From Cystobasidiopsis lactophilus (Eukaryota > Basidiomycota > Agaricostilbomycetes > Agaricostilbales > Chionosphaeraceae): a stretch of 64,000 bases of DNA. The notes under the pieces are model-generated. The model was given only the letters and a program-made list of their open reading frames with translations. It searched no databases and had not been told where the DNA came from. Shown one piece after another: positions 47,470-62,763 of this stretch. A program made the position numbers and the translations under genes. Within the stretch, counting starts at the first letter, position 1, and the number at the start of each line of letters is the position of its first letter. The stretch lies in contig BCIO01000005.1 of the NCBI GenBank assembly GCA_001599975.1, positions 2,404,508-2,468,507 on the forward strand, written 5' to 3'.

Positions 47470-48348
47470 ACCTATACACTTCGCTTTTCGGTCTTCTTTG
47501 CCACCATATCCTCAGGCTTTTGCTTGTCTTAGAAGGGCCTTGCCGCTAAACTCGGGAAAGCGTCAAGAAAAGGCGCCGGGTAGCTGTAGATGCAATTAGG
47601 GCGCCCTCGTCTACGTCTTGAGGAGTTGGCCAATCCTAAGTCCTTGAATGTAACCGCGCCAGGATCCGGCGCTTGAAGGTGGCGAACTGCCTCAAAAATC
47701 GGAAGTTCTGAAACCCGATCCTACTCCTCCTCATCCTGGTCCTATCTCCAGACGTAACCTGGCCGTGGAACGAGTTTGAAGCTTTGCTTGCCATCAACGC
47801 AGCCCGGTTCAAGGCCTGCATCCTAAACAAGCCCGGAATCGCCATTTTTCGCCGAAGAATGGGAGAGGGTCGGAAGGGGTCGGGAAAGTGGGCTTTGTGC
47901 CGTGGGAGTATTTTGATTGTTCACAGGAGATGGGAGAGGAAGCGAAAGAACCAGTAAAACTGAAAGCCAGAGAATGCGAAGTTGAAGTCTTTGTAGATTC
48001 GACGTCATCTTGAAGCCTGCTTTCGAGTAGCTTGTCAGAGCAATGAACCAGAGCCTGGAGGTAAATGGTGCCCACGACGCACGAAGGAGAGCCGAAATTT
48101 CGACGTGGATGGATTGGCCAAATGAAAGTAGGAAGAAAATGTGGCGGCCAACGTAGCTTAAATGATGTCTAGATGTAGGATATGAAAGCCTTTAACCAGG
48201 GGAGCAACGAAATATGCCCAGCGAAGAGGGAATGCTGATGGTGATGTGGGGGTATGAAGGGCTAGCTAAACCGCCGCAAAAATGAAAAGGCGCATCGTCC
48301 TGCTGGTTGCAGAACAGAAATTTATTGGTGTGAATGTGAGTGCTGGAC
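47470..48348. other. 879-bp convergent spacer
   Basis: The spacer lies between the stops of PRA1 and the minus-strand zinc-cluster gene. A minus-strand frame of about 70 codons (47636-47845) is rich in Arg and Ser and has no known domain or splice partner. I see no repeat or RNA gene. The 3' UTRs alone would not fill it. Confidence 0.4.
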
Positions 48349-50256
48349 CTAGGGGAAGAACGTCCGAGTCGGGAGGCCCATGTTGAACGAGTTGGTACGC
48401 GAGCGAGGTCCGCTGGGTCCAGCCGCATTGAAGCCGGCGAAAGACGAAGGGCGCGAAGCACCAAATGGATTAACGCCAGGGACTGCCGAGAAGCTAGGCG
48501 TTGTGCTTCTGCTGAAGTTGGACGGACCACCACTGAAGGAGAAGGTGCGATTCATGCCAATGGGAGCGGAGCGTCCGGGTGAGGGCGATCGCATTGGAGA
48601 AACAGACCTAGATGGGGTGGAGCTGCAAAAAGTTGGAACTTCGAACGGCGACGACCCGGTGGGGACGGGTGGGAGCAAGGGCGAGAAATCTGAATCTGCC
48701 CACAAAAGGGGTAAGGTCACCAAAATGAAGCTGCACGTGAAGTGCTTACCGTCGTCATCTATAACGATGACCAGGTATCTGAAAGACCGTTTGGTCAGTC
48801 GCGAGCTCAGGTCTGGCCAACGAACAAATTCCGAATCTCACCCTTTCGACATGAAGCCACGAGGATCGCTGAGACTGGCTTCTCGGCCTGCCAGATAGAC
48901 TTTGATCTGCGAGAGACCATTGGACCCAGTGACTTGGGAGGCCAGCGCAAGGAGCTCACAGATTTAGCGAGCATCTGTCGCTTTTTGGTCTTGACGCGGA
49001 AGCTGCCTTTGAAGCCCATGGTTCTGACGCAACGTATTAAACGGTGTATCCTTGTGGAGTCGACAAAGAGCTCACCCTTCGGCGGGTCTCAGCAAGTCTG
49101 CAGGTGCCTGAGTCCGCAGATGCGAGACGGGGACACGGAGAGCACCGACGATGCCTTTCGTCTGCCTGACTGTGGCCATGCAACTAGCTCGAAAAATCAG
49201 GATAACCACAATTTGGTTGCCAAGCGGTGGCTGCTTACAGGTCTGTGAAGCGCTGGCGGTCAGAGCGGTGGACAATGCTGCGGGACCACCGTCAGCGAAA
49301 GTGCACCTTTCGACAGGATGTTATAAGGCTCACTCAGAGGCCATCCTTCCGTCCAACTCGGCGAGTGGATAGCCCATCAGTGGCTCGATGCCGTTGCCAA
49401 AGAAGCGCATCATCAGATTCAGACCGCAGACGATGAACTGCGCTTTCAAATTCAGTTCGGTTCAAAACAGGTCAGACAACGACAAGAGCACACAGGGCAG
49501 TCGTGGAGGGCGGGATTAGCCGGGCTGTATTGATTGTCAGGCATGCACGGCAGGCCAAAGCGAGACATGGGGTTGTCCAAAGGCTGCATGCTGTACCCAG
49601 TCCAAGTAAAAGTCTGTGGCGCGGCGGGGTCGTACTTGGGCTTCGGAGCTGGTGGGAATTCCCATGTCAGCTTGCTCTGGAGAACTCGAGGAGGTGGTGG
49701 GACCGGCACTTACGAGATGGGTCGGCGTCGCGCTGGCACGGGGATCAGCTTCGGAAGTAGTGGTGAAACAAGACAAAAAAAAAAGACGCACGCATTCTAT
49801 TCCAGCACTGACGCAGTTTCCGCATGGGCGGTTCTGGTTGCACCTGGAGGTGGTGAGATCTTGTCAGATCTGGCTCATGTAGCGCGCCCGAAACAGCTCT
49901 GGGCAGCTGGACTCACGCTATGTGGCGCCTTTTGCACTGTTGAGGTTGTGGACATTGAGTTATATGTGGGCGGCGGAGAAGAGAAAGCGGGGGCGAACCT
50001 CGGCGCAAGCTCCAGTGGCTCGCCTCGAGAATGTGAAGCTATTAATTTTAGAGAAAGATGGTGTAGTTGAGGTTGGAAAAGGGAAAGAGGGCGTGGTCGC
50101 ATTGGCGCTTCTGACAGGCGGAGGCAGAAGGAAACGCTGCTGGGTCGCAGGGTTGCTTCTGGCAAAGTCACTGAATGAGCCAAAAGACGATGTCACGGAT
50201 GGGAGGTGCAGGGGAGCAGTTGTAGCAGGGCGTTTTGGTTGACCCGGCCAGTCCAT
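48349..50256 (-). CDS. Zn2Cys6 transcription factor with PAS-like region (paralogue 1)
   Basis: A fungal binuclear-cluster regulator. ATG 50256 begins MDWPGQPKRPATTAPLHLPS, a Ser/Pro-rich leader. The zinc cluster, built from three exons, reads ACAECKRRHIACNQNRPCGN then CVSAGIECVR (C-x2-C-x6-C-x5-C-x2-C-x6-C). Its first half lies on a 20-nt micro-exon (49917-49936). Then come YDPAAPQTFTWTGYSMQPLD and SRFGLPCMPDNQYSPANPAL, the PAS-like NLMMRFFGNGIEPLMGYPLA then IVHRSDRQRFTDL, GALRVPVSHLRTQAPADLLR, and GFKGSFRVKTKKRQMLAKSV. The tail is Ser/Pro-rich and ends SRTNSFNMGLPTRTFFP, stopping at 48349-48351. Zn2Cys6 plus PAS recalls the Ert1/AcuK/Rds2 regulators of gluconeogenesis, and RPC-x2-C fits, but the assignment is tentative. 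It is paralogous to 58746-60642. Confidence 0.8.
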
Positions 50257-50268
50257 GAAGGCGTCTGT

Positions 50269-51018
50269 TTAGTTGGCGAGGATTCGGGCGATGATGCGGT
50301 TGACGGTCAGAAGGAGGCCACCTGCACCGCTTCCTAGCGCGACTTCCTCGAATGTAATCTCCAGGTCGATGCCGCAAAGGCGTAGGAGGGTGAAAACGAA
50401 GGCAAGGAAAGCCAATGCAAAGTAGAACCACAATGGCATGAATTGGCTGGCGGAGAATGAAGAGTCCAGGTGCCCACAGTGCGATGAGCAAAGAACTGGC
50501 GAAGAGGCGTGGCCGAGAGGCTGTATTCCAGGGCTCCAAGGTTCAGATATCGGGTGGACAGGCGCAGAAAAGGGAGCGCACCCGCGAGCTTTGACGAGCC
50601 AGGAGAAAATGATGCTCTCTGGACTGGAAAAGTGCCAGAGTGTTGAAGGGGATCTCGATCCGCAACAAGTCAACAGGTCATTCGGCGACGCGAAAGAGAG
50701 AGCCCGCGAAATGTGCCTGAGCCAGGAAAGGCAGGAGTGTGGTCGTTGTGCAGCAAAATTTTGTGGCTTTGGGCCGAAAGCACAGATCCGCCGGAGGCGT
50801 TGGGCCCGTGTGCACGCAGTGCACCAAAGGATGAACGCCCTGTTTGGGAGCGAGGAGCCAGGTGAAAGGTTCGTGCTATGGGCGGACTTGATGGACATCT
50901 CCTCCTCGAGCAGCAAGCAAGGAGCCTGGAAATGGTGCGTCTTGAAGAGGGGAGTCGACGCCGACTCGACCAAAACCGGCAACATCCTTTGTGCCACCAA
51001 GCGAAATCGATGAATCGA
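50269..51018 (-). CDS. Possible small membrane protein
   Basis: I do not recognise it. The C-terminal part has good codon use and reads QFMPLWFYFALAFLAFVFTL, then LRLCGIDLEITFEEVALGSG with AGGLLLTVNRIIARILAN, stopping at 50269-50271. One strong hydrophobic helix, and perhaps a second (LFASSLLIALWAPGLFIL) in an overlapping frame, suggest that an intron lies near 50460. The upstream part is a continuous but unconvincing frame rich in Cys and Ser, so the start is not known; the coordinate given is the outer limit. Its stop lies only 12 bp before the ATG of the zinc-cluster gene on the same strand, which is unusual. It may be a real gene or part of that gene's leader. Confidence 0.3.
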   Translation of the reverse strand, partial: SIHRFRLVAQRMLPVLVESASTPLFKTHHFQAPCLLLEEEMSIKSAHSTNLSPGSSLPNRAFILWCTACTRAQRLRRICAFGPKPQNFAAQRPHSCLSWLRHISRALSFASPNDLLTCCGSRSPSTLWHFSSPESIIFSWLVKARGCAPFSAPVHPISEPWSPGIQPLGHASSPVLCSSHCGHLDSSFSASQFMPLWFYFALAFLAFVFTLLRLCGIDLEITFEEVALGSGAGGLLLTVNRIIARILAN

Positions 51019-51231
51019 TACACGCCACAGATTAATTAACGGGCTTTCCTCGCGCCACAACGTCGGCTAGCAAGCATGCACGGTGATTGAGCAGGTCGCC
51101 AAACCGGGAAAAGAAGAGCACGCTTCGAAAGCCAGGCAGGAGTTCAGCGAGAATATGGCGGTCGGAGTCTGACCTGTACATTTACCACCCAGCGACTCGG
51201 TGCTGTGCTGCAAATTGAACAACGTGGCAAT

Positions 51232-54200
51232 TCAAGATCGATTGAAGAAGCGGCCCAGCCGTTTCCCTTTGCCACCTTCGTCCGCAGAGCCAACCGACGG
51301 CGCCTGGTGCATCTCCGAAGACGACGCCATCGACGAGGAAGACGACACGGAGCGATGTGACCGCATTGGGGACGACAAGCTCTTGATCGTGGCGCTGACG
51401 AACCCTCCTTTCCACTCTGAGCTTGCTTCGTCCAACAACCGCATCGCTTGCAACTCGTGCTCTGGCAACGACCCTGCTGGAAAGGGTATTCCACTTGGCA
51501 CCTCGGTCGAAGGCGATCGCCGCAGACGGGGACTGCTGCCCGCGCCGGACGAAACAGTCTGAGCGCGGTGGCGGCGGCCAGGACTTCCAAGCCCTTTCAT
51601 CGAATAGCGCCCAGGAGACGAAGGCGTCTGCTCGTCGCTGGTCTCTCTGGAGTGCGAAAAATGGCGTGCAGTAGGCGTTGCACCCTGCAAGATCTCGGGC
51701 GAAGAAGCCAGCATGTCGTTAGCGAGGCGAGCTTGGGCCTGAGCGCATAGCCGGTGGCACTGCTCTTTGAAGGTCGAAAAGAGCGCAGGCTGTGCTTTGG
51801 TGATGTGCAAAGGCGAAGAGCGGACGACGTGGCTGATGAGCAAGGCCAGCTCCTTGCCGGGGTCCAACAGAAAGGGCAGCTCCGGGATGGCCTCTCGAAG
51901 CAGTGCGTTATCGACGCTGTCCCTCTTCCGCATCGGCAGCTCATAAGCGTCGAAGGAAGGCGAAGTCCACTGGTGCGACGAGCCGCTGATGGGAGCGGAC
52001 ACAAAGGTCATGTAGTCGATGAAGGCCTCTTGGTTGTCGCCAAGGAAGCCGTTCATGATGCCCATGTACGACTCCTTGCTGCCGAACTTGCTCATGTTGG
52101 CCAAGCCTTGCAGTGTTTTGGCGATCAAGGTGAGCGTGCGTTGGCAACGCGGCTCGGGATGGGAAGAGGTCAGGCCGAACATCTTTGGGTTGAGCAAGGC
52201 TGGAACGAAGAAGCGGAGAAAGAGGAAGGCCGACACAGCAGTGAACCGCATTGCTGAAGCCGCCTTTTCGTACTTCTGGTCCACAACCTTTTGAATGTGG
52301 CTGAAGATGTGGCGTAGTTCGCTGTAGCTCGCATAAGATGTCATGCCAACGGAAATGACGGAGGACAACAGCTTACTTGGGACAATGCTGCCGTGACTGG
52401 TAAAGCGTGTTCCAGACGTAAGCCATCCACCGCTCCAAATCGAGGACGTTGTCGCTCAAATTCCGATCCTTGCTTCCGCCCTTCAATCGGTCTGGATCGA
52501 TCTCGATTTCCACCTTTTGCGAGCAGAGCATGTTGACAGCGTCACCTATCGAGAGCATCAAGAAGTCACTGCCCGTCATGCGAAGGTAGATCTCGAGCAT
52601 CTTGGTGAGGAGCGTGTTGCCTCGGAACAAGATGCTGGCCGAGGCCTCGTTGCCATCTATTTCGACTTCAATCAGAGCTGCCAAAATGGACTGGATCGTG
52701 CCACGAGAAACAGCGATCCGGACGAGCGACTCTGCGATCGACTCGAGATCTTGCGGTGCTAGGGACGAGAACTCGCTCAGTAGCGTCACATCCACGTCGT
52801 TTCCGAAGATAGCAGAGTTTTTCTGGCTCTTGATTTTAGCGGGGTAGGTTTGAGCCGAGGGCAAAACGCACCGAGAGGAAACCGCTGTACTCTGCTGAAG
52901 GCAGGATGGGCAGCTCTATGACCCGGAGCTGGATGCTGAGTTCACCGATGGGACCAGGCTGACCGTTTGGCGGAAAGATAGGAAGCCATTGCTCAAGGTG
53001 CTGGCCTCGAGGGAAATTGATCGTGGGGACGTCCACTGTCCCAACCAGCGCGACATTGGTGACGCCCTTGCGTTGCTGAGTCTGATATAAACGAATGCTG
53101 AGGGACTCTGATAAATCAGGCAAATCGCTGCACATCGCAAGTCAGTGGCATCCTTTGAAAGCAAGGACAGCAAGCCGCACGATAACGAGAATGCGTCGCG
53201 CCAGAACGGATTGCTGGAGCCCTTCTTCGATGCGGAGCGGGCGACAACGACATCGTTCCAGGCCACCTCGCAGAACAACTTGCTAGAAGACGACCAATTA
53301 GCCGGCGTCGAAGAGGCATCTTGCTGTGGGCGAGAGCCAAAGCTTGAAGCGGTGGAAGTCGACAGATTAAAAGAGTGCGAGCCAGACATGCCTGTTGGCG
53401 GCTCTTCGGAGGACGTCCGTAGACTTGTCTTGTCGAGCGCTGACGGATTGGGGCGCAGGGCAATAGCTTCGCCGATGCTCCGGCCTTCGACGAGTACGAG
53501 GTCGATGCCTCGCCAAAGCCTTGCCATCGGATAGGGCGAAGCAGACTCTTCCAAGGAAGGGGAATGGCTGGACGAAGGCTCCAGATGAGAAGCTGGGTCG
53601 GGCTTTGCGTGGGTCTTGAGCAAGACGTAAAGCGAATGCAAGATGGACGTGGAAGGCAAGCAGATGTGGCAGAAGTCGTCTGTTTCGACAGAGCTGGTCA
53701 GATTGGCGGTCGACGACGAGTCAGAAGAGGACTTGGAGCCAAAGGGCAGGAACGAGGTGGCGGTGGAGGGGCGGAAGGACGGCGAGCGAACCATTTCGCT
53801 GACAGAACGAGCGCCTGCTGGCCGAGTTGTGCTGACATTAATGCTGATGCAATGCGATCGTAAGAGGAGTGACGGGTCTTGCAGGTTGATGTGCGATCGT
53901 CGTAAGAGTGAGATGGGAATCGAATGAATGGGTACTTTATCCTGCTCTCCCGCGGCCTCAGTAACTCCAAGTGATGTGACCAACAACAGTGCTTACATCT
54001 GTGGTGGTAACAATTAACAGGCCGGTGCTGTTCAAGGTGCATTCGGCTGGCCGCCAATCCCAAGTGGTCGAATTAGGGCCGCTGGGACCATGCGTGAAAG
54101 ACGAATGCAGGCTCGAGCCGTCTGAAAGGCCTCGTTAGATCAAGAAACAGATATCGATAGGCAGGCGACTGACCCCGCGGAGGCAGCTGGAGGCCTTTTA

Positions 54201-55299
54201 GTTTCCCCGAGGCCGAGTTGCTCGAGGTGGCCAAGACTTGGGCGCTCTCTCGGCGAGCGATCTTCTTCTTGCCTGCCGGAGGATCCTTCATTAGAGGCGT
54301 CTTGATGATTAATGGGGGCCCGTTGCTGGAGGATGTCGAGGACTGCAAGTCGCCCGATGAGCGGACTTTCGCCCAGACAAGGATGTCCGCCGTCCAGAGC
54401 TCCGCTTTGCTCTTGCTTCTTAGACGCTGACTTTTGATGTTAGATGTAGACGGCGACGGAGGGGACACTATGGGCTGGATTGTGGCCGCCGTTGACCGCC
54501 GGCGAATGGCAGCAGAGACGGCGGGATCCGCATCGTCCGTAAAGAAGTGAGCCGAGTTGCGCTTGGACTTTTGAGAAGAGACAGAACGGGAAGCAGTAGC
54601 GAAAGAGAAGTCGTCATCGTCGTCTGAATCGATCGTAGCTTGCCGTGAAGACGGTCGCGGCGCACGGTCAATCCGGGCCTGCAGCCTGGGCTTGCCTCCG
54701 GGGCGGACTGAGGATGCTGGAGATAATGGTGTCATTATCGGCTCCGCTGGAAGGGGATCTGAAGACGGAGTGGTGTGGATGGACGATGGGTGGGTCGAAG
54801 CCGAGTCGACGCTGCGAATGCTGCCCACGCCCGCTCTCGAGCTCTCCGCGGCCGAATAATGCAGCGGTGACGAAGCGTTCCTCCCAACGCTGTCCGTAAA
54901 GCTCCGCTCGTCCCCATCGCTGCGCCCCGAGTCCGAATCCGAATCGTCCAAAGACCGTAGCACCTTTTGGGCGGCCAGTCTTGGGCTGCGCGGCACATAA
55001 ACCCGCCTGGGCCTAATGGCTGCCTCTTCTGCGCCAGACGTGCTGCTGCTGGTGGAAGCCGTGCCGAAATTGGAGTCGGTCATGCTGAAATTTGGGCGGG
55101 GAGGCAGGGCCTTGCCCGTTGAGTCGGTGTGCGCAGAATTGGCTGTGGCCGGTGGCTTGTAGAGAAAGCCAGGGTCTAGTGCATAGCTGAAGGAGTCTCT
55201 TGGGAGAGCTGGGGCTGAGGAGCGCCGCCTGAGGTTGACTTTGGACCGATCTAGGGGAGCGCTGGCCGCACGCTGCTGCGTCAACGGAATTGAAGGCAT
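51232..55299 (-). CDS. C2-domain Ras GTPase-activating protein
   Basis: It switches off Ras-type GTPases at the membrane. The start is probably ATG 55299 (MPSIPLTQQRAASAPLDRSK), though an upstream exon is possible. The first ~400 residues are Ser/Pro-rich and disordered. A region around SKAELWTADILVWAKVRSSG may begin a PH-like fold. A C2 domain follows (LFCEVAWNDVVVARSASKKG, NPFWRDAFSLSDLPDLSESL, SIRLYQTQQRKGVTNVALVG). The RasGAP domain has NTLLTKMLEIYLRMTGSDFL, SIQKVVDQKYEKAASAMRF-like helices, and the signature SAFLFLRFFVPALLNPKMFG, with the FLRF...PAL-NP core. The tail is Ser-rich and ends GKRLGRFFNRS, stopping at 51232-51234. C2-RasGAP order fits the Bud2/RASAL/SynGAP-like group rather than the very large Ira/NF1 proteins. 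About 1,250 residues. Confidence 0.82.
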
Positions 55300-55988
55300 C
55301 AGCCAGGGGTCTATACAAGTTTGATGGTAGAACAGGAGCAAAACAAGGACCAGCTTTAGCTCCAAAAGCGACAACGTGAAACTGCGCGAGGAGCGTTTTG
55401 TGAGGCAAGGCGTTGAGGTCTTGCATAAAGAGCCGAAGCAGGGACGCCAGGGATAGGGGGGCAGACCGGGAGCTTGTGGACTCACGTCGTTTGTACTTCC
55501 AGACTGGTGGCGCAGCAGGAAGGGAAGGCCAGCGGACCGGGAGCGAGGCGAGTTCAAGAGAAAAGGAAGCTTTGGGCACGGCCCTTCGAGATCTCAAAGC
55601 CGGCGGCCCTGGTTCGCGCTCCGTGGTCTCTGGCCAAAGATGTACAGGGGCAACTACAATGCAAGAACGCGTCCCGTCCCTCAGCTTGAAGGTGCTGGCG
55701 TTCGGCAGCTGAAGACTTTGTCACCGCGTCCTGAAACGCCTTTGTGAGGTCTAGCGCCAGACAAACTGCCTCGCCTGGCAGCGTAACTTCGTCTGTTAAC
55801 ACAAAGAGTCAATCTTTTGAATGAGGTGAAATGCGCACGGGATTAGATCTCGATGGCCGAAGTCCAAGCAAAGTTGGCCTTTATTATTCACGGTGGCAGC
55901 CAACTCTTCTGGGCTTCCTATGGCGAGCAATTTGCTCAGATGTGATTCGATGGAAGCAGGCATCTCAGCTTACCAACGAGGCTTCCTC
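55300..55988. other. 689-bp spacer
   Basis: Upstream region of the RasGAP gene and 3' flank of the amidase gene, both on minus. The frame upstream of 55299 stays open to about 55557 without an ATG, so a 5' exon of the RasGAP gene may reach into this stretch. Nothing else is seen. Confidence 0.4.
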
Positions 55989-58162
55989 TCAGCTTGGTCG
56001 GGAAGGCGGGCGCTTGATGAATTCGCCAGGCCCAAATCGTCTTGGACCCAGCGCATTGTCTACAACTTCCATCATCGCCAGCACCTTCAAGATACCGAAT
56101 GAGAGAATTGCTAGGAGATGCTGTAGGGAACCCACTGCACCTTCTCTTCCGACCACAACGGCCCGACGATCTGGACCGCCACCGGCAGGCCTTCCATTTC
56201 TGCGGGCGAGTAGACGCCGCCGCTGAGCTTGTTTCTGCCATAAAGGAGGGATTCCATTGTCGAGCTGCCATGAGGACCAGCAGCCAGCCATTCGGGAGTT
56301 AGGGCATCCTTGGATGCGTCGACTCGAGTGACTGGGACGACTCCGACCGTCGACTCGACGATGTTGTACAAAATGGTCTGTGCCGCCAAAAACGCCAGGT
56401 TCCAAGCCTGGCCGTGCTTGAGAGCCGGAACGCCTTCATCAATTGTGAGAATTCGGAATTCTTTGGGACAGCCGACAAGAGTGCTTACCTTGAACGGGGC
56501 AGATTACACCATCCAGCCCCTTCTCTTCGCTCCACAAGTATTCGCGAGTCTTTCGAACAAAGTCGTCCCGTTGAGCTTGCCATTTGTACAGGTCGACGAC
56601 GTCCTTCTTGCCCGCTGCCCCCGTAATGGAGAAGAAGACGGGGTCGGCCCGGGACGACAGAGAAGAAAGAAAACCAAGTATTCGAGGACCCAGTTTCCTT
56701 TGGAGGTTGATCAGGAACAGAGAAGGCTCGCTGGGGTCACCGTCGAGTCCGGACAGCAAAGACTCGTAGCCATCCGCAGAAGTCATGGCCACAAACAAGC
56801 GCAAAGCTTCAGCCGAGTCACCTGCTTCGAGCTCTACACATTCGTGCCCCGCTTGGCGAAGAGCGTCGACCGTCATCTGGACGGCCCTTTGGCAGGCGGG
56901 GCTACTTTGGTAAAGGTTCTCCGATTTGTAGTAGCCGAAACGCAGCTTTTCAGGGAGATCAATTTTGCGAAAAGGGAACGGGAGGAAGAGCTTGGGCAAA
57001 GTCGCAGACTTGGCGGCCGTCGCATCCATCACAACTTTGGTCAGCCGCTTGAGGTCTTCGACGCATCTTCCCCTGCGTAGAATTCTTGGCTTCATTTTAG
57101 TTTGATTAAGTAAGGCGTTCTCACATTGGGCCCAAAGATGTCGCCACTGATTCGGCGCCTCGGACGGATGACTGCACGCCATTCGATGCAAAGCGACCGA
57201 GGGAGGGCTTTAGAGCGAAGCAGCCGCTACAGTCCGGTATAAGCCTTTTCGAATCAGGTTTACGCGCAATCTCACCTATAATGAGCTGGAATGCGCAGGG
57301 AGCCGCCAATGTCCGAGCTGGCCTGGCGTATAAGATGCGCCGCAAGAGATAGAGGAGGCGGAGCTTTACCCAATTCCCAATGGAGAGCAGTCGCTGGCTA
57401 AAAGTGCTGCTTCACCGCCGCTGCTGCCTCCAGGCCCCCGTTCGCCATCGTGAGGGTTGAAGGTCTTGCCGTGGGTTGGATTTGCGCATTCAAATGACAG
57501 CAGGGTTTGCGGCACGTTGGTCTTGGCAAACGGAACAGCGCCCGCTGCTTTGAGGATTGTGATCAATAGCTAGACCCTTCATGAGCGCGCGGTTGTTGGC
57601 GAGTGGCAAAAGGCTTACCGCATCGGCAGTCGCCGGATTGTGCGCCTTTCTGTGATACTGTCAGCGCCAAAATCATTTTTGAAGCGAAACCTACGTACGC
57701 AGAGAAGCCCAGAGTCGTGTCGAGGTTGGCGATATCCAGCTGGTCTTTGACAGAGACCGGGACCCCGTGCAAAGGGCCACGGATGGCGCCAGTCTTCTCG
57801 AACTCGAGGTCCAACTCTTTGGCCTGTATAAGCGCTTGCTCAAAGTTGGGCTCGGTCTGATCGCAAAGTCAGCTTTCAACAAGGAGACGTGGAGTCGGAC
57901 GGACAATGGCATTCAGGGCATCGTGGGATCGTATGCAGGCTCGAATATAAGCAGCGAGGACTCTTGAACTGGTCCATCCAGGCTCCAATTGATCAATGTT
58001 CTCGACAATCTTGGCCACGGAGGCGCTCAAGAAGGGCAGGTCCTCCTCCGGGTCGACGTCGCCTATCTGCTCGAGAACGGCAGCGAAATGGGCCTCTTTG
58101 GCTTGCTGTTTCGCTTTGAACACCGTCTGTGCTCGAGTTGGAGCAGGCCACAGAAGATTCAT
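55989..58162 (-). CDS. Amidase signature family hydrolase (fatty-acid-amide-hydrolase-like)
   Basis: It hydrolyses amide bonds through a Ser-cisSer-Lys triad; substrate unknown. ATG 58162 begins MNLLWPAPTRAQTVFKAKQQ. The Lys is in LHGVPVSVKDQLDIANLDTT. Next comes GAVPFAKTNVPQTLLSFEC, then the Gly/Ser-rich signature GERGPGGSSGGEAALLASDC, with the cis-Ser in GGSSGG, and the nucleophile region SDIGGSLRIPAHYCGCFALK, with GRFASNGV after it. The C-terminal half includes EKLRFGYYKSENLYQSSPAC and AEMEGLPVAVQIVGPLWSEE. An intron after SEEK leads to VLAMMEVVDNALGPRRFGPG, stopping at 55989-55991. About 560-590 residues in about nine exons, typical of fungal amidases such as AmdS. No leader peptide is evident. 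Confidence 0.9.
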
Positions 58163-58278
58163 TCCGCAGGTTTGCTGGCTCTCGCCTCTTCGCTGGGCGG
58201 GTTCAAGAGAGGTGCTCTCTTCCTGGGCCCACCAAAGTCGCCTGGGAACTTTCTCATTTCGCGCTTAAGGTAGTAGCG

Positions 58279-58665
58279 ATGATAAGCTATGATGACGCCC
58301 CGACGTGTCCAGATTGGACAGATATTGGGGACCCCGACACTTCATCAGCCGAGGCTGGCTCCGACGTCGAAGTCACTGTTTCCTCCAGCGGCCTCGCACG
58401 CACGGACTTTGTGCGCGAAATACAAGCATGCGGCTGCTTTGGAGTGATCCGCTCCGTGCTTTTGGGTCCTGAGAACTGTCCTGAGATTAATATCTGCGGC
58501 GGATCTGCTTTGACACCAACTTGCTCTGCTCCGAATCGCACTCGCAGTGACTCCTTGCTTGCTGAGATGCGAGCATTGTTTGCTAAGGACTGTGCTCCAT
58601 CATCAATCGATTTGGGCCTCATGGCCCCCCTTCACTTGTTGGGATGCCCTTCTGTCCAGATTTGA
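58279..58665 (+). CDS. Small hypothetical protein
   Basis: An uninterrupted 128-codon frame starting at ATG 58279 reads MISYDDAPTCPDWTDIGDPD with an acidic N-terminus. A Cys-containing middle (REIQACGCFGVIRSVLLGPE) leads to CAPNRTRSDSLLAEMRALFA-like sequence and the end APLHLLGCPSVQI. There is no signal peptide and no known domain. It sits between the amidase start (58162, divergent) and paralogue 2 of the zinc-cluster factor (58746, same strand), 80 bp upstream of the latter. It could be a real small gene or lie within the long leader of that gene. Confidence 0.35.
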   Translation: MISYDDAPTCPDWTDIGDPDTSSAEAGSDVEVTVSSSGLARTDFVREIQACGCFGVIRSVLLGPENCPEINICGGSALTPTCSAPNRTRSDSLLAEMRALFAKDCAPSSIDLGLMAPLHLLGCPSVQI

Positions 58666-58745
58666 TCGGACAGTTTGTTTCCCGTTCAAGGAGGCACCCA
58701 TTTTCGCCATGTCACACAACAAAAAAGTTTTCTTGACCCTCGCCG

Positions 58746-60642
58746 ATGGCTTGGACGCCGCAGCGACCAAGCACCACGGCCCCAATGCGTCTGCCGTCCT
58801 TGGAATCATCTTTCGGATCGTTCCACGACTTCGCTCAAGGCCTTCCAGCGGGCCAGAGCTCTTTTCTCGTGCCTACGCCTGTCAGAAATGGCAGAGCCTC
58901 GATGTCTTCCTTTTCCTTCACAGCTTCGGCAGCGCCAAGTACCTCCAAACCCGGGCGCGTCTCTCTCCCTGGATTCTCTACTCTCACGAGACGGCCTGGA
59001 GCTTGTTACGAGGTATGTTGTTTTTTGTGATGGCACGATACGACGATCTGCTCACAGGCGATTCCAGTGCAAGAAACGCCACATAGCGTGAGCTCGCTTC
59101 CTTGAGATGGCCTGCTAGAACCAGATCTGACCAGATCTCGCCATTGCCAGATGTAACGAAAATCGTCCTTGCGCCAACTGCACGGGAGCCGGACTGTTCT
59201 GTGTGCGTCCTTAATGCTGCGTGGCAATGCTCCATTCTCTGATCCTTGCCTTGACATTACAGCGTGACGCTGATCCGACTCGTACGCACTAGTCCCACCA
59301 TTTCTGAAAGTTATATGACGCTGATCAAGCGCGGTCGATGAACAGCACCCAAACCCAAATACGACCCCAACGAGCCTGAGACGTTCATCTGGACCGGCCA
59401 CAGTTTCGAGCCCTTGGGCAATTCGATGTCGCGGTTTGGCCTCCCCTGCAAACCGGACAACCGCTTTAGCTCCACCAACCCCACTCTGCGCGACTGCCCT
59501 GTGGGTCCTGTCTTCCAATTAACCCACTGTGGATCTTCAGATTGAACAGAGGTTGCCATCGGCGCAGTTCATAATTTGCGGCCTGAACTTGATGATGCGC
59601 TTCTTCGCCGACGCCATAGAGTCCCTGATGGGTTACAGATTGATCGAGCTGAACAACCGAATGGCTCCTGAGTGAGTTAGTTGGCCTTTGAGCTTGGAAT
59701 CTGCCTGACGACGCGCCGTCAGCATTGTCCATCGCTCTGACCGCCAGCGCTTCACTGACCTGTGAGTGGAAGACTTGGCCCCTTCAAATTCCGATTTTCT
59801 GACTCCAGGGTTCAAGGTGTATGGCCACAGTCAGGCAGACGAAGGGCGTCGTGGGAGCCCTCCGCGTGCCTGTCTCTCACCTACAGACACAGGAGCCAGC
59901 CGACTTGCTTCGCCCCGCCGAAGGGTGTGTGCGCTACTTCTGGCTCCAAACTCGGTCTAACCCATAGTCTACAGAACCAAGGCTTTCAAAGGCAGCTTTC
60001 GCGTCAAAACCAAAAAGCGACAGATGCTCGCTAAATCTGTGAGCGTCCGTCATCCGCCGTCGAGCAGATGTGATCTGAATCTCTTATCAAAAAGATAAAA
60101 TTCTACCTGGCTGGTCGCGGTACCAGCCTCAGCGACCCTCACGGCTTTCTTTCGAAAGGGTAAGGGCTCCCGTTCGCGGAACGGACTCGTGGCTGACTTG
60201 CCTCTAGATACCTTGTCATAGTGATTGATGACGAAGGCAAGTCCAAGTTTCCCGCTGCTGATTGATGCGAGGCTTAAGTGCTTTCGTCCGGACAGACTTC
60301 TCGCCAACATACGCTCCAGTCTTCCCGGGTCCGTCACCGTTTGCGCCTCCCGTGACTGGCCCAGCGCCCTTCAACGGATTTCAATACCCAACCAAGTCGT
60401 TGATGCGACCAGCCTCCCCGGGTGCTTTTGGCTCTCCCAGCTTTGGCGTCCTCCCCTTCAGTGGCGGCGCCTCTCCCACCGGCAGCTCCTTGTCTTCCAG
60501 CTTCTCGTCCGCGCCTTCTCCCAGCGACTTCAGTGTGTCGCGCCCTTCGTCCTTTTCGAGCTTCAGCCCACCTAGCTCGAGCGGTTCTCGATCTCGCTCC
60601 AACTCGTTCACGATGGGCCTCCCCACCCGCACCTTCTTCTAA
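58746..60642 (+). CDS. Zn2Cys6 transcription factor with PAS-like region (paralogue 2)
   Basis: ATG 58746 begins MAWTPQRPSTTAPMRLPSLE, aligned with the start of paralogue 1. The zinc cluster reads ACYECKKRHIACNENRPCAN then CTGAGLFCVRP, with six Cys in canonical spacing; a 20-nt exon (59068-59087) supplies CKKRHIA. Then come YDPNEPETFIWTGHSFEPLG, SRFGLPCKPDNRFSSTNPTL, the PAS-like NLMMRFFADAIESLMGYRLI and IVHRSDRQRFTDL, GALRVPVSHLQTQEPADLLR, and AFKGSFRVKTKKRQMLAKSV. RYLVIVIDDE precedes a GC-AG intron (donor GCAAGT at 60237). The Ser/Pro-rich tail ends SRSNSFTMGLPTRTFF, stopping at 60640-60642. Many residues are shared with paralogue 1 in every block except the linkers. The target pathway is unknown; an Ert1/AcuK-like role is possible. 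Confidence 0.8.
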
Positions 60643-61074
60643 TCAGCTGGCCTCAATAGCTGGCTTTCCCACTCTACTTGGCATACTCGCCTTCCTAATA
60701 CACCTGCCAAGATTCCTGTCCTATAGCCGGTCAAGTTGTCACAGCGTTGGGAACTATTTGGAAGCGGCGTACTCGCTCTTTTCACTTGCAGGCGCTCTGG
60801 CATCGCTCTGTCGAAGCCTTATGGTACACAGGAGGGTGCCAAGGGAGACTGCTGCAATCAAAGACGCCCTGAGAAATTTGCCACTGGCGCGTGATTCGAC
60901 GACAGGGAGCGGTTCGAGCTCCGCGAAGGTTGTCCTTCTCCTAGAGCCTCTGACATCTAGAAGACTCCCTTTTGGCCAAGTTTCCTCAGCCAATAACCCC
61001 CTCACCGCCCGTTCCCACTCTCGCGCTCCCCAACGACTTGTCGACACCTCCCAGGACAGCGTTCAGACCACAAA
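60643..61074. other. Spacer without a recognisable gene
   Basis: This 432-bp spacer lies between the zinc-cluster gene and the RRM gene, both on plus. Nothing beyond a 3' UTR and a promoter is indicated. Confidence 0.4.
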
Positions 61075-62763
61075 ATGGCCGAAGCTGCAGTGAGCCCGCC
61101 TTTGCCCCTGCCTTTGCTCCGTCCCTCCGAACAGCACGCTCAAATCAAGCTATATGCAGATCACTCAAGCCACCACGGCTTCGCCCAACGACGAGGGCCG
61201 CAAGGTCAGTCTTTTGAATTCATGCGGAGGCGGGCCCTCTTGCGTTCTTTTGCACATTTCTCAGGCTTTTCCCTCTGGCGCTGCGCAGGTGCGATGCCCT
61301 GACTGGCTGTTAATTGGTTGATATTGATGTTTGGAGCAGGTCTTTGTCGGCAATTTGGACTTCAAGGCCACAGACGACACCCTGCGTGAAATCTTCGCCG
61401 GCCAAGGCACCGTGTTAGTCCTCCTTTCTCACTCTGTCGCCCTTGGTTATAGGCTCATTTGAATCTGTAATGACTACAGCACGGATGTCCAGATCATCAA
61501 GTGCGCTTTGACCTTGACTTTTGTCCTGGAGAAGCCCGAAACCTGATGCGGGCGTCACTTTAGAAAATACGCTCGTAGCTCCCGCTCCCTGGGCTACGCC
61601 TTTGTCGTCCTCTCGACCACCGAGGAGGCCACCGCTGCCATCTCTGCGTAAGCACTCTGACGCGCGGGGACTTTGTTCCCTCGAGCGAGCCGGTTGATGC
61701 TGAAACGGGTCCGTGGGAATTATCAGTTTGGACAAGAAGGAGTTTGGCGGCCGCACCATCAACGTCGAGATGGCCAAGCCACCTTCCAACACCCCGCGTG
61801 CGTTTTTGCTAGATCTTGCTTTTGCGATGTGGGCAGACGATTGACGGGCAATGGGTGAAACAGGTGGCGCCATTGCGAAGGAAGCCGCCGAGGCTGCTGG
61901 CGGTGAAGCTTCGACCGAAGGCCACGAGACGACCGGTCGACGTGGTACTGGCCGACGAGGCCGTGGCGCACGCGTGAGGAATTCTCTTCGTTGATTGCCA
62001 CAACTTCGAAGTTGACGAGGTTTGGATCAAAAGCGCGGCCGCGGTGGACGCCGAGTCCCAGCTGACGGCGAGACCGAAGGCGGCGCTGCGGCCACCTCTA
62101 CTGAGGCTCAGGCTGAGACCACTTTGGCTAATGGCGACGCCGAAGCGTGAGGGCGATCGACCATTCAAGCAGCTATTCGATGCTCAGGATTGGGTTCTTT
62201 CACAGTGCTCCGCGTCGCGGACGTGGCCGAGGACGTGGTCGCACCACTGGACCTCGCGGCCCTCCTCAAGGTGGCGAGCCCTCCAAGACGTTGCTCTTTG
62301 TGGCCAACCTGCCTTTCTCCTTGGACAAGTGCGTCCTTTCCTCTTGCGCCTTTGTCCAAGAACCCTTGTGGACATTTCATGTGTCACAGTGACGGCCTGA
62401 AGGGCGTTTTTGAAGGCTTCAACGTCGTCAATGCCCACATTGTCGTCAGGAAGCACGGGCCCGTCACCGGCCGCTCTAAGGGCTTCGGCTTTGTCGAGGT
62501 AATGCCTGCTCTGCCCATTATGCTGAGCTAAAATTTAAGTTCGCGTTTCCGTTGCAGCTCTCGGATGAAGCCGAACAGCAAAAGGCGCTCGAAGCCACCA
62601 ACGGCAAGGAGATTGATGGCCGGGTGAGCACCTTTCTTCTGGCCGCTCGTTCTATTTGCTCACAGGAACCGGCAGGCAATCATCGTCAAAATCGCCGTCG
62701 ACCCTCCCGCCGCCACTGAAGAGGCCACCGAGGCCAAGACCGAGGAGGCGCCCGCTTCGTAAA
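61075..62763 (+). CDS. Two-RRM, RGG-containing RNA-binding protein (Sbp1-like)
   Basis: Yeast Sbp1 has RRM1-RGG-RRM2 and represses translation through eIF4G; this protein has the same order. ATG 61075 gives MAEAA, and after an intron (donor GTGAGC) the protein continues TLKSSYMQITQATTASPNDE. RRM1 has RNP2 VFVGNLDFKATDDTLREIF and RNP1 SRSLGYAFVVLSTTEEATAA. The linker is Arg/Gly-rich (TTGRRGTGRRGRGAR, APRRGRGRGRGRTTGPRGPP). RRM2 has RNP2 TLLFVANLPFSL and RNP1 RSKGFGFVELSDEAEQQKAL. The acidic end reads DPPAATEEATEAKTEEAPAS, with the stop at 62761-62763. About ten introns. An Nsr1-like nucleolar role is less likely because the RGG block lies between the RRMs. Confidence 0.82.

Follow-up and report, generated by a model that had tools for sequence, protein, structure and literature searches.

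Fungal regulators that combine a Zn2Cys6 zinc cluster with a PAS domain have been described as paralogous pairs. Passages of PMC12719309 present AcuK and AcuM as PAS-bearing Zn2Cys6 proteins that function together as a heterodimer, and parts of that paper and of PMC8092316 voice the suspicion that heterodimers of this type form via PAS. In Cryptococcus, Pas2 requires both its PAS domain and its zinc finger, according to a section of PMC8092316. Here we compare with these systems two genes, copy A and copy B, that face away from each other in a 64,000-nucleotide stretch of DNA from Cystobasidiopsis lactophilus (the window, C5:2404508-2468507), within a searched genome of 22.1 Mb in 8 contigs. 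Its zinc-cluster genes and closely set short introns are those of a fungus, and the intron density suggests a basidiomycete. The best explanation, which we favour with moderate confidence, is that A and B are old paralogues of one inverted (or duplicated-then-inverted) local duplication, and that they encode probable zinc-cluster/PAS regulators that would work like AcuK/AcuM outside that family.

Two mirror-image genes with matching structure

The gene models were built by hand from conserved frames and splice sites. Both are intact, with 12 exons and a Gal4-type Zn2Cys6 cluster:

48349..50256, minus strand: copy A gene, 12 exons, 419 amino acids; Zn2Cys6 cluster, PAS-like region and Ser-rich ends; GT-AG introns; Pfam Zn_clus E 1.6e-8
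58746..60642, plus strand: copy B gene, 12 exons, 431 amino acids; architecture as copy A; last intron GC-AG; Pfam Zn_clus E 1.7e-7
60237-60295, plus strand: copy B last intron, with a GC donor (GCAAGT); GT at the same place in copy A
49917-49936 (copy A, minus) and 59068-59087 (copy B, plus): exon 2, 20 bases in both gene models
49714-49732 (copy A, minus) and 59263-59281 (copy B, plus): exon 4, 19 bases in both gene models

These models confirm the two matching, diverging genes of the initial annotation. The copies lie on opposite strands, are transcribed divergently and have 8.5 kb between them. Their introns match in position and phase at 11 of 11 places, with lengths of 52-73 bases in copy A and 40-64 in copy B; all are GT-AG in copy A, and copy B has ten GT-AG introns and one GC-AG. 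Intron 5 of copy B may alternatively take the later acceptor used by copy A, which gives a protein of 422 amino acids (9 residues fewer). Because exons 2 and 4 are micro-exons, automatic gene calls for the pair would be unreliable.

The motifs singled out beforehand (TTAPxxLPS, SRFGLPCxPDN, NLMMRFF, HRSDRQRFTDL, FKGSFRVKTKKRQMLAKS and MGLPTRTFF) are all present in both spliced models, with one extra residue, P, after MGLPTRTFF in copy A. The block-by-block likeness of the two proteins is equally clear in alignment, where 271 of 411 aligned residues are identical, and in the genome search the copy A protein matches copy B exons with E down to 4.1e-20. Given this identity, the agreement of 11 introns and the exon E-values, the resemblance between A and B is far beyond chance.

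The zinc clusters are encoded over three exons:

49792..50007, minus strand: copy A zinc cluster CAECKRRHIACNQNRPCGNCVSAGIEC, over exons 1-3; the span takes in introns 1 and 2
59004..59202, plus strand: copy B zinc cluster CYECKKRHIACNENRPCANCTGAGLFC, over exons 1-3; the span takes in introns 1 and 2

Pfam Zn_clus (PF00172) scores 35 bits in A and 31.7 bits in B against a cut-off of 21. The two clusters are spaced alike, as had been predicted, with the pattern CX2CX6CX5CX2CX6C in both spliced models, and are near-identical in sequence (CxECK[RK]RHIAC). In a zinc-cluster tree of 15 sequences, built from a short alignment of about 35 residues, A and B pair with a support of 0.96 (FastTree) and 93 (iqtree2). 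The tree holds A, B and 13 of the 26 Zn_clus matches in the genome; of the others, 12 depart from the cysteine pattern and 1 is a repeat. The genome search for Zn_clus misses intron-split clusters, so that A, B and the AcuK-like gene of this genome fall outside the 26; the AcuK-like gene is absent from the tree, and A and B are its sole intron-split clusters.

The omitted repeat is an observation in its own right. An identical zinc-cluster stretch, with its translation, lies near the ends of contigs C3 (C3:3800848-3800961) and C8 (C8:214902-215015), which suggests that a contig-end region is shared or duplicated.

An old local duplication with both copies constrained

Divergence between the copies is substantial. 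Overall, nonsynonymous divergence (dN) is 0.245 and synonymous divergence (Ks) is 1.56, giving a ratio (dN/dS) of about 0.16. Along the protein, dN is 0.41 for the N-terminal part and 0.43 for the tail, against 0.22, 0.17 and 0.093 for the zinc cluster, the linker and the PAS-like region; in the zinc cluster and linker, saturation makes Ks impossible to compute. We also counted identical codons against a saturation expectation, taken as independent draws from local codon usage (five open reading frames (ORFs) of the window). Counts are close to that expectation in exon 1 (16 vs 14.6), exon 3 (5 vs 5.2), exon 4 (1 vs 1.9), exon 5 (14 vs 12.7), exon 6 (9 vs 8.5) and exon 11 (4 vs 3.4), and somewhat above it in exon 2 (4 vs 2.6), exon 8 (16 vs 10.7), exon 10 (9 vs 6.1) and exon 12 (25 vs 16.8). 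The Ks of about 1.6 and the near-saturation codon identity in exons 1, 3, 4, 5, 6 and 11 point to an old duplication, though one without saturation everywhere; physical linkage alone is no proof of a recent one.

The low dN/dS indicates constraint on both copies. A pairwise ratio near 0.16 is hard to reach had either copy been unconstrained for most of its history. From their sequences, A and B look like real genes, both functional.

An inverted local duplication with both copies kept, as first proposed, is supported by the common introns, the low dN/dS and the lack of a third copy in a genome search with protein A that scores its best candidates only. Of the 18 matches in that search, 8 fall in A and 7 in B; the remaining 3 lie at other loci and cover the zinc cluster only. 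Within the window, the nine longest inverted repeats (41-161 bases), among 25 of 49 listed, pair copy A with copy B.

A larger duplicated block was rejected, as likeness ends at the gene borders. The best match between the upstream 1 kb of A and of B is 14 bases (E 0.010), the downstream 1.5 kb of the two copies give E 0.97, and left and right flank DNA give E 0.043. Over many queries with translated flanks, the best E per query is 0.005 (31 residues, 35% identical), and between the enclosed block and the remainder of the window there is no match at E up to 1e-3.

Further afield, prokaryotic contigs yielded 287 pattern matches and viral contigs 22, with 0 confirmed relatives in either set, a result without bearing on fungi. 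We recognised no paper describing the A/B family in our literature searches and make no claim that the family is unpublished.

A probable PAS-type domain beside the zinc cluster

The most conserved part of the proteins follows the zinc cluster:

48750..49437, minus strand: copy A PAS-like region, exons 6-11, residues about 169-304; PAS_3 E 0.013 on the isolated region, below cut-off; also from PDB profile search and hhalign
59541..60236, plus strand: copy B PAS-like region, exons 6-11; PAS_3 E 0.052 on the isolated region, below cut-off; also from PDB profile search and hhalign

Searched in isolation, the region draws PAS_3 and no other Pfam family in either copy, and NCBIfam sensory_box matches one of the two members (0.1). 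A PDB profile search returned 6 sequences with E up to 10, all of them HIF-2alpha (EPAS1), with the PAS domains aligned GY on GY; the best stretch is the second PAS domain of HIF-2alpha. Compared by hhalign with a profile of five PAS segments from the same genome, the region scores 28.3, against 16.7 for the best of 40 column shuffles. That profile derives from the 6 PAS_3 matches in the genome, of which a partial one (C3:235752) was left out and one below cut-off (C3:619938) was kept. PF00989 (PAS) has 5 matches in the genome and none in A or B; its match at C4:78325, outside the PAS_3 matches, was not used. The MGY motif of A and B fits the G-Y core of Cryptococcus Pas3, a change in which impairs that protein, as stated in a portion of PMC6234864.

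Taken together, several weak matches make a PAS-like segment next to the zinc cluster, as the initial annotation had it, probable for the N-terminal half of the region, while no PAS profile exceeds its curated cut-off. We think it likely from these comparisons that the proteins have a single PAS-type domain starting about 60 residues past the zinc cluster.

Alternative explanations

The middle region of these zinc-cluster regulators could instead be an unrelated conserved domain without the PAS fold, which we consider unlikely. Several points weigh against a PAS domain and in favour of such a reading. Every PAS match is below cut-off: on the isolated region, PAS_3 reaches 16.2 bits in A and 14.3 in B against 25.6, and with the whole protein as query only copy A gives a match to it (E 0.092), copy B having none at E up to 1. 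HIF-2alpha matches with whole-sequence E of 0.24-0.99, its displayed single stretches having E of 62-190, and because the 6 PDB sequences are forms of one protein they count as one piece of evidence. The hhalign probability is just 48%, with scores of 10.5-19.0 against the five PAS segments singly. Coverage is limited to roughly the first 40-65 of the 138 residues: past about residue 60, in the C-terminal half, no match was found, and a long basic insert, KTKKRQMLAKS, also matches nothing. The GY motif is itself weak support, since a G to A change in the core of Cryptococcus Pas2 was without effect, going by a passage of PMC8092316. Counter to this, four comparisons (Pfam, NCBIfam sensory_box, the PDB profile search, and hhalign with its shuffles) favour PAS, and three of them agree on the stretch involved. 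A PAS-type domain stays our preferred reading. The age of the pair can be questioned in turn, as the duplication might be recent or its copies under homogenisation by gene conversion. Arguing for this are exons 7 and 9, picked after the fact, with DNA identity of 95% and 92% and synonymous divergence of 0.28 and 0.24. Identical codons occupy 10 of 13 same-residue positions in exon 7 (4.9 expected at saturation) and 16 of 18 in exon 9 (7.1 expected):

48960..49023, minus strand: copy A exon 9, 16 of 18 same-residue codons identical
59975..60038, plus strand: copy B exon 9, the counterpart of copy A exon 9

A run of 20 same-residue codons has 18 identical, a level reached in 0.9% of 5000 shuffles, and the gene as a whole has 129 identical codons among 259 same-residue ones, compared with about 94 summed from the per-exon saturation expectations. 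However, synonymous identity is near saturation in the six exons listed above. A conversion tract would also normally cross the introns beside exons 7 and 9, yet similarity is absent from the introns flanking exon 9 (z 0.2 and -0.5) and slight in the neighbours of exon 7 (z -0.3 and 2.2). Recent origin or conversion is therefore very unlikely in our view, and we retain an old duplication. Least credible of all is that A and B represent the Ert1/AcuK and Rds2/AcuM types of regulator in the host fungus, a relationship to Ert1/AcuK having been floated in the initial annotation. The domain kinds are the same (Zn2Cys6 and PAS), the genes are likewise a paralogous pair, and HIAC in the A and B clusters resembles HLTC in the AcuK-like gene of this genome. 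The test model, PAS_13 (PF24990), which we take to be the ERT1/acuK PAS model, is not perfectly specific either, as a control search also matched in the archaeon Haloferax volcanii. Against membership, PAS_13 exceeds its cut-off elsewhere, with two exon matches at C5:2035234-2035516, and has two matches below cut-off at C3:1616763-1617378. It is unreported for A and B on the whole protein (E up to 1) and on the isolated region (E up to 10), a search in which HMMER filters drop most matches above about 0.1. The last two cysteines are separated by 6 residues in A and B and by 8 in the AcuK-like gene; the 8-residue spacing, read here from that gene alone, is taken to hold across the Ert1/AcuK family. 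We rejected Ert1/AcuK membership for A and B on the basis of PAS_13 and the cluster spacing. Zinc-cluster halves, one of them ACFHCQKAHLTC, lie about 1.1 kb upstream of the C5:2035234 PAS_13 locus on the same strand, and none was found at the C3:1616763 locus with the cysteine patterns used. The likely Ert1/AcuK counterparts, judged by these matches, sit elsewhere in the same genome.

A shared element in intron 2

The sequence CCAGATCTGACNAGATCTC is preserved in both copies within intron 2, the intron that cuts through the zinc cluster:

49844..49916, minus strand: copy A intron 2, inside the zinc cluster; holds CCAGATCTGACAAGATCTC (alignment)
59088..59150, plus strand: copy B intron 2; holds CCAGATCTGACCAGATCTC (alignment)

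The A-B alignment of intron 2 gives z 7.2, compared with -1.1 to 2.2 for the other ten introns, so that intron 2 alone is strongly conserved. The element reads CCAGATCTGAC[A/C]AGATCTC. Exact matches of its 16-base core in the genome are confined to intron 2 of A and of B; five further copies have one mismatch (2 for the reversed control), and the one of these that was read, C2:1248059, reads as an open frame and is not evidently an intron. In the minimum-energy fold, intron 2 of both copies forms a 6-bp hairpin, AGATCT-GAC[A/C]-AGATCT, with the probable branch point CTGAC in the loop. Reading through the intron meets an immediate stop in both copies, GCG TGA after exon 2 (CKRRHIA-stop or CKKRHIA-stop).

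As retention of intron 2 stops translation inside the cluster, splicing of this one intron would decide DNA binding, and A and B may share a splicing-level switch, kept since the duplication, that governs the DNA-binding ability of either protein. We rate this as quite unlikely. Taken whole, the intron does not exceed shuffles in stability, either by itself (z -0.30 and 1.04) or with exons 2 and 3 (z -0.69 and 0.69), and a GTGA donor at phase 2 often yields a stop, as in introns 6, 8 and 10 of copy A. Covariation is uninformative because the hairpin stem is invariant between A and B, and Rfam has no family at gathering score in 48000-61000. The element could equally act at the DNA level. Codons at most 12 bases from a splice junction are identical in 43 of 69 cases, compared with 86 of 190 elsewhere (p 0.017), which leans towards splicing constraint; this overlaps with the signal in exons 7 and 9 and is not independent of it. 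A and B also share an identical stretch of 32 bases whose end lies 5 bases inside intron 9; a search allowing up to 3 mismatches found it nowhere else.

Enclosed and neighbouring genes

Of the four-gene block thought to lie between the copies, the RasGAP and the amidase hold by Pfam, and the membrane and small ORFs have no Pfam family at E up to 0.01:

50269-51060, minus strand: putative membrane ORF, 263 codons
51232..55557, minus strand: RasGAP gene, Pfam RasGAP in ORFs 51232-52368 and 52373-52864; exons deduced from ORFs, borders approximate
56111..57814, minus strand: amidase gene, extent of the ORFs with Pfam Amidase matches, borders approximate
58287-58622: small ORF

The two RasGAP ORFs match with E of 1.3e-16 and 8.1e-10; two more, 52916-53986 and 54073-55557, again without a Pfam family at that threshold, we infer to belong to the same gene. 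Amidase matches reach 6.9e-13 in one search, and 9e-9 and a sub-threshold 5.1e-4 in another. The putative membrane ORF ends 12 bases upstream of the copy A ATG in the same frame, and so may be just a copy A leader (an upstream ORF) or chance. Read from a later ATG, its final 56 or so residues resemble a small membrane segment. An ORF overlapping the amidase gene end (55936-56271, minus strand) has a sub-threshold DUF4005 match (E 0.0088) that is probably chance. To the right of copy B lies an RRM-type RNA-binding ORF (62190-62531, plus strand; RRM_1 20.9 bits vs a cut-off of 20.7).

Proposed role and comparison with known systems

We infer the function of A and B from their domains alone. The proteins would be nuclear regulators, and their near-identical clusters would bind the same kind of CGG-type half-site. 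By analogy, the PAS region would let them dimerise, with self or with each other, and it would make them responsive to a signal from inside the cell, be it metabolic, redox or other. Differences between the copies in output or regulation would come from the Ser-rich ends, the most diverged parts.

So read, A and B are a second probable Zn2Cys6/PAS-type regulator pair in a genome that has AcuK/AcuM-like loci as well, and a case of two old paralogous regulators staying mirror-image within 12.3 kb. If the PAS region is real, the profile libraries used here fail to call what is probably a sensor or dimerisation pair. The common intron element, with two exons whose synonymous sites are nearly frozen, is a hint of RNA-level control. 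As it stands, this is an ordinary paralogue pair with one odd detail.

Compared with Gal4/Put3-type regulators, A and B are alike in cluster spacing and sequence, PUT3 being the best solved match (E 5.6e-4). They differ in that no Fungal_trans domain is reported in either (Pfam, E up to 1), a PAS-like region standing in its place. With the WC-2/Bwc2 type they share a classical PAS core, GY...EL.G....(I/V)H..D, adjoining a DNA-binding domain, and the PAS at C6:258905, which we take to be WC-2-like, scores highest (19.0) when the segments are compared singly by hhalign. The DNA-binding domain of WC-2 is a GATA finger, whereas A and B carry a Zn2Cys6 cluster.

The closest parallel in design is AcuK/AcuM (Ert1/Rds2, and Pas2/Rds2 in Cryptococcus), again a paralogous pair with a Zn2Cys6 cluster and one PAS domain. 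A and B differ from it in the unreported PAS_13, in having 6 and not 8 residues before the last cysteine, and in not being the PAS_13 loci of their genome. Their PAS-like region begins about 60 residues past the cluster, compared with a Pas2 core at residues 518-535 in the relevant passage of PMC12719309. Without claiming membership of that family, we suggest by analogy that A and B would work as the AcuK/AcuM pair does, as Zn2Cys6-PAS paralogues forming a heterodimer.

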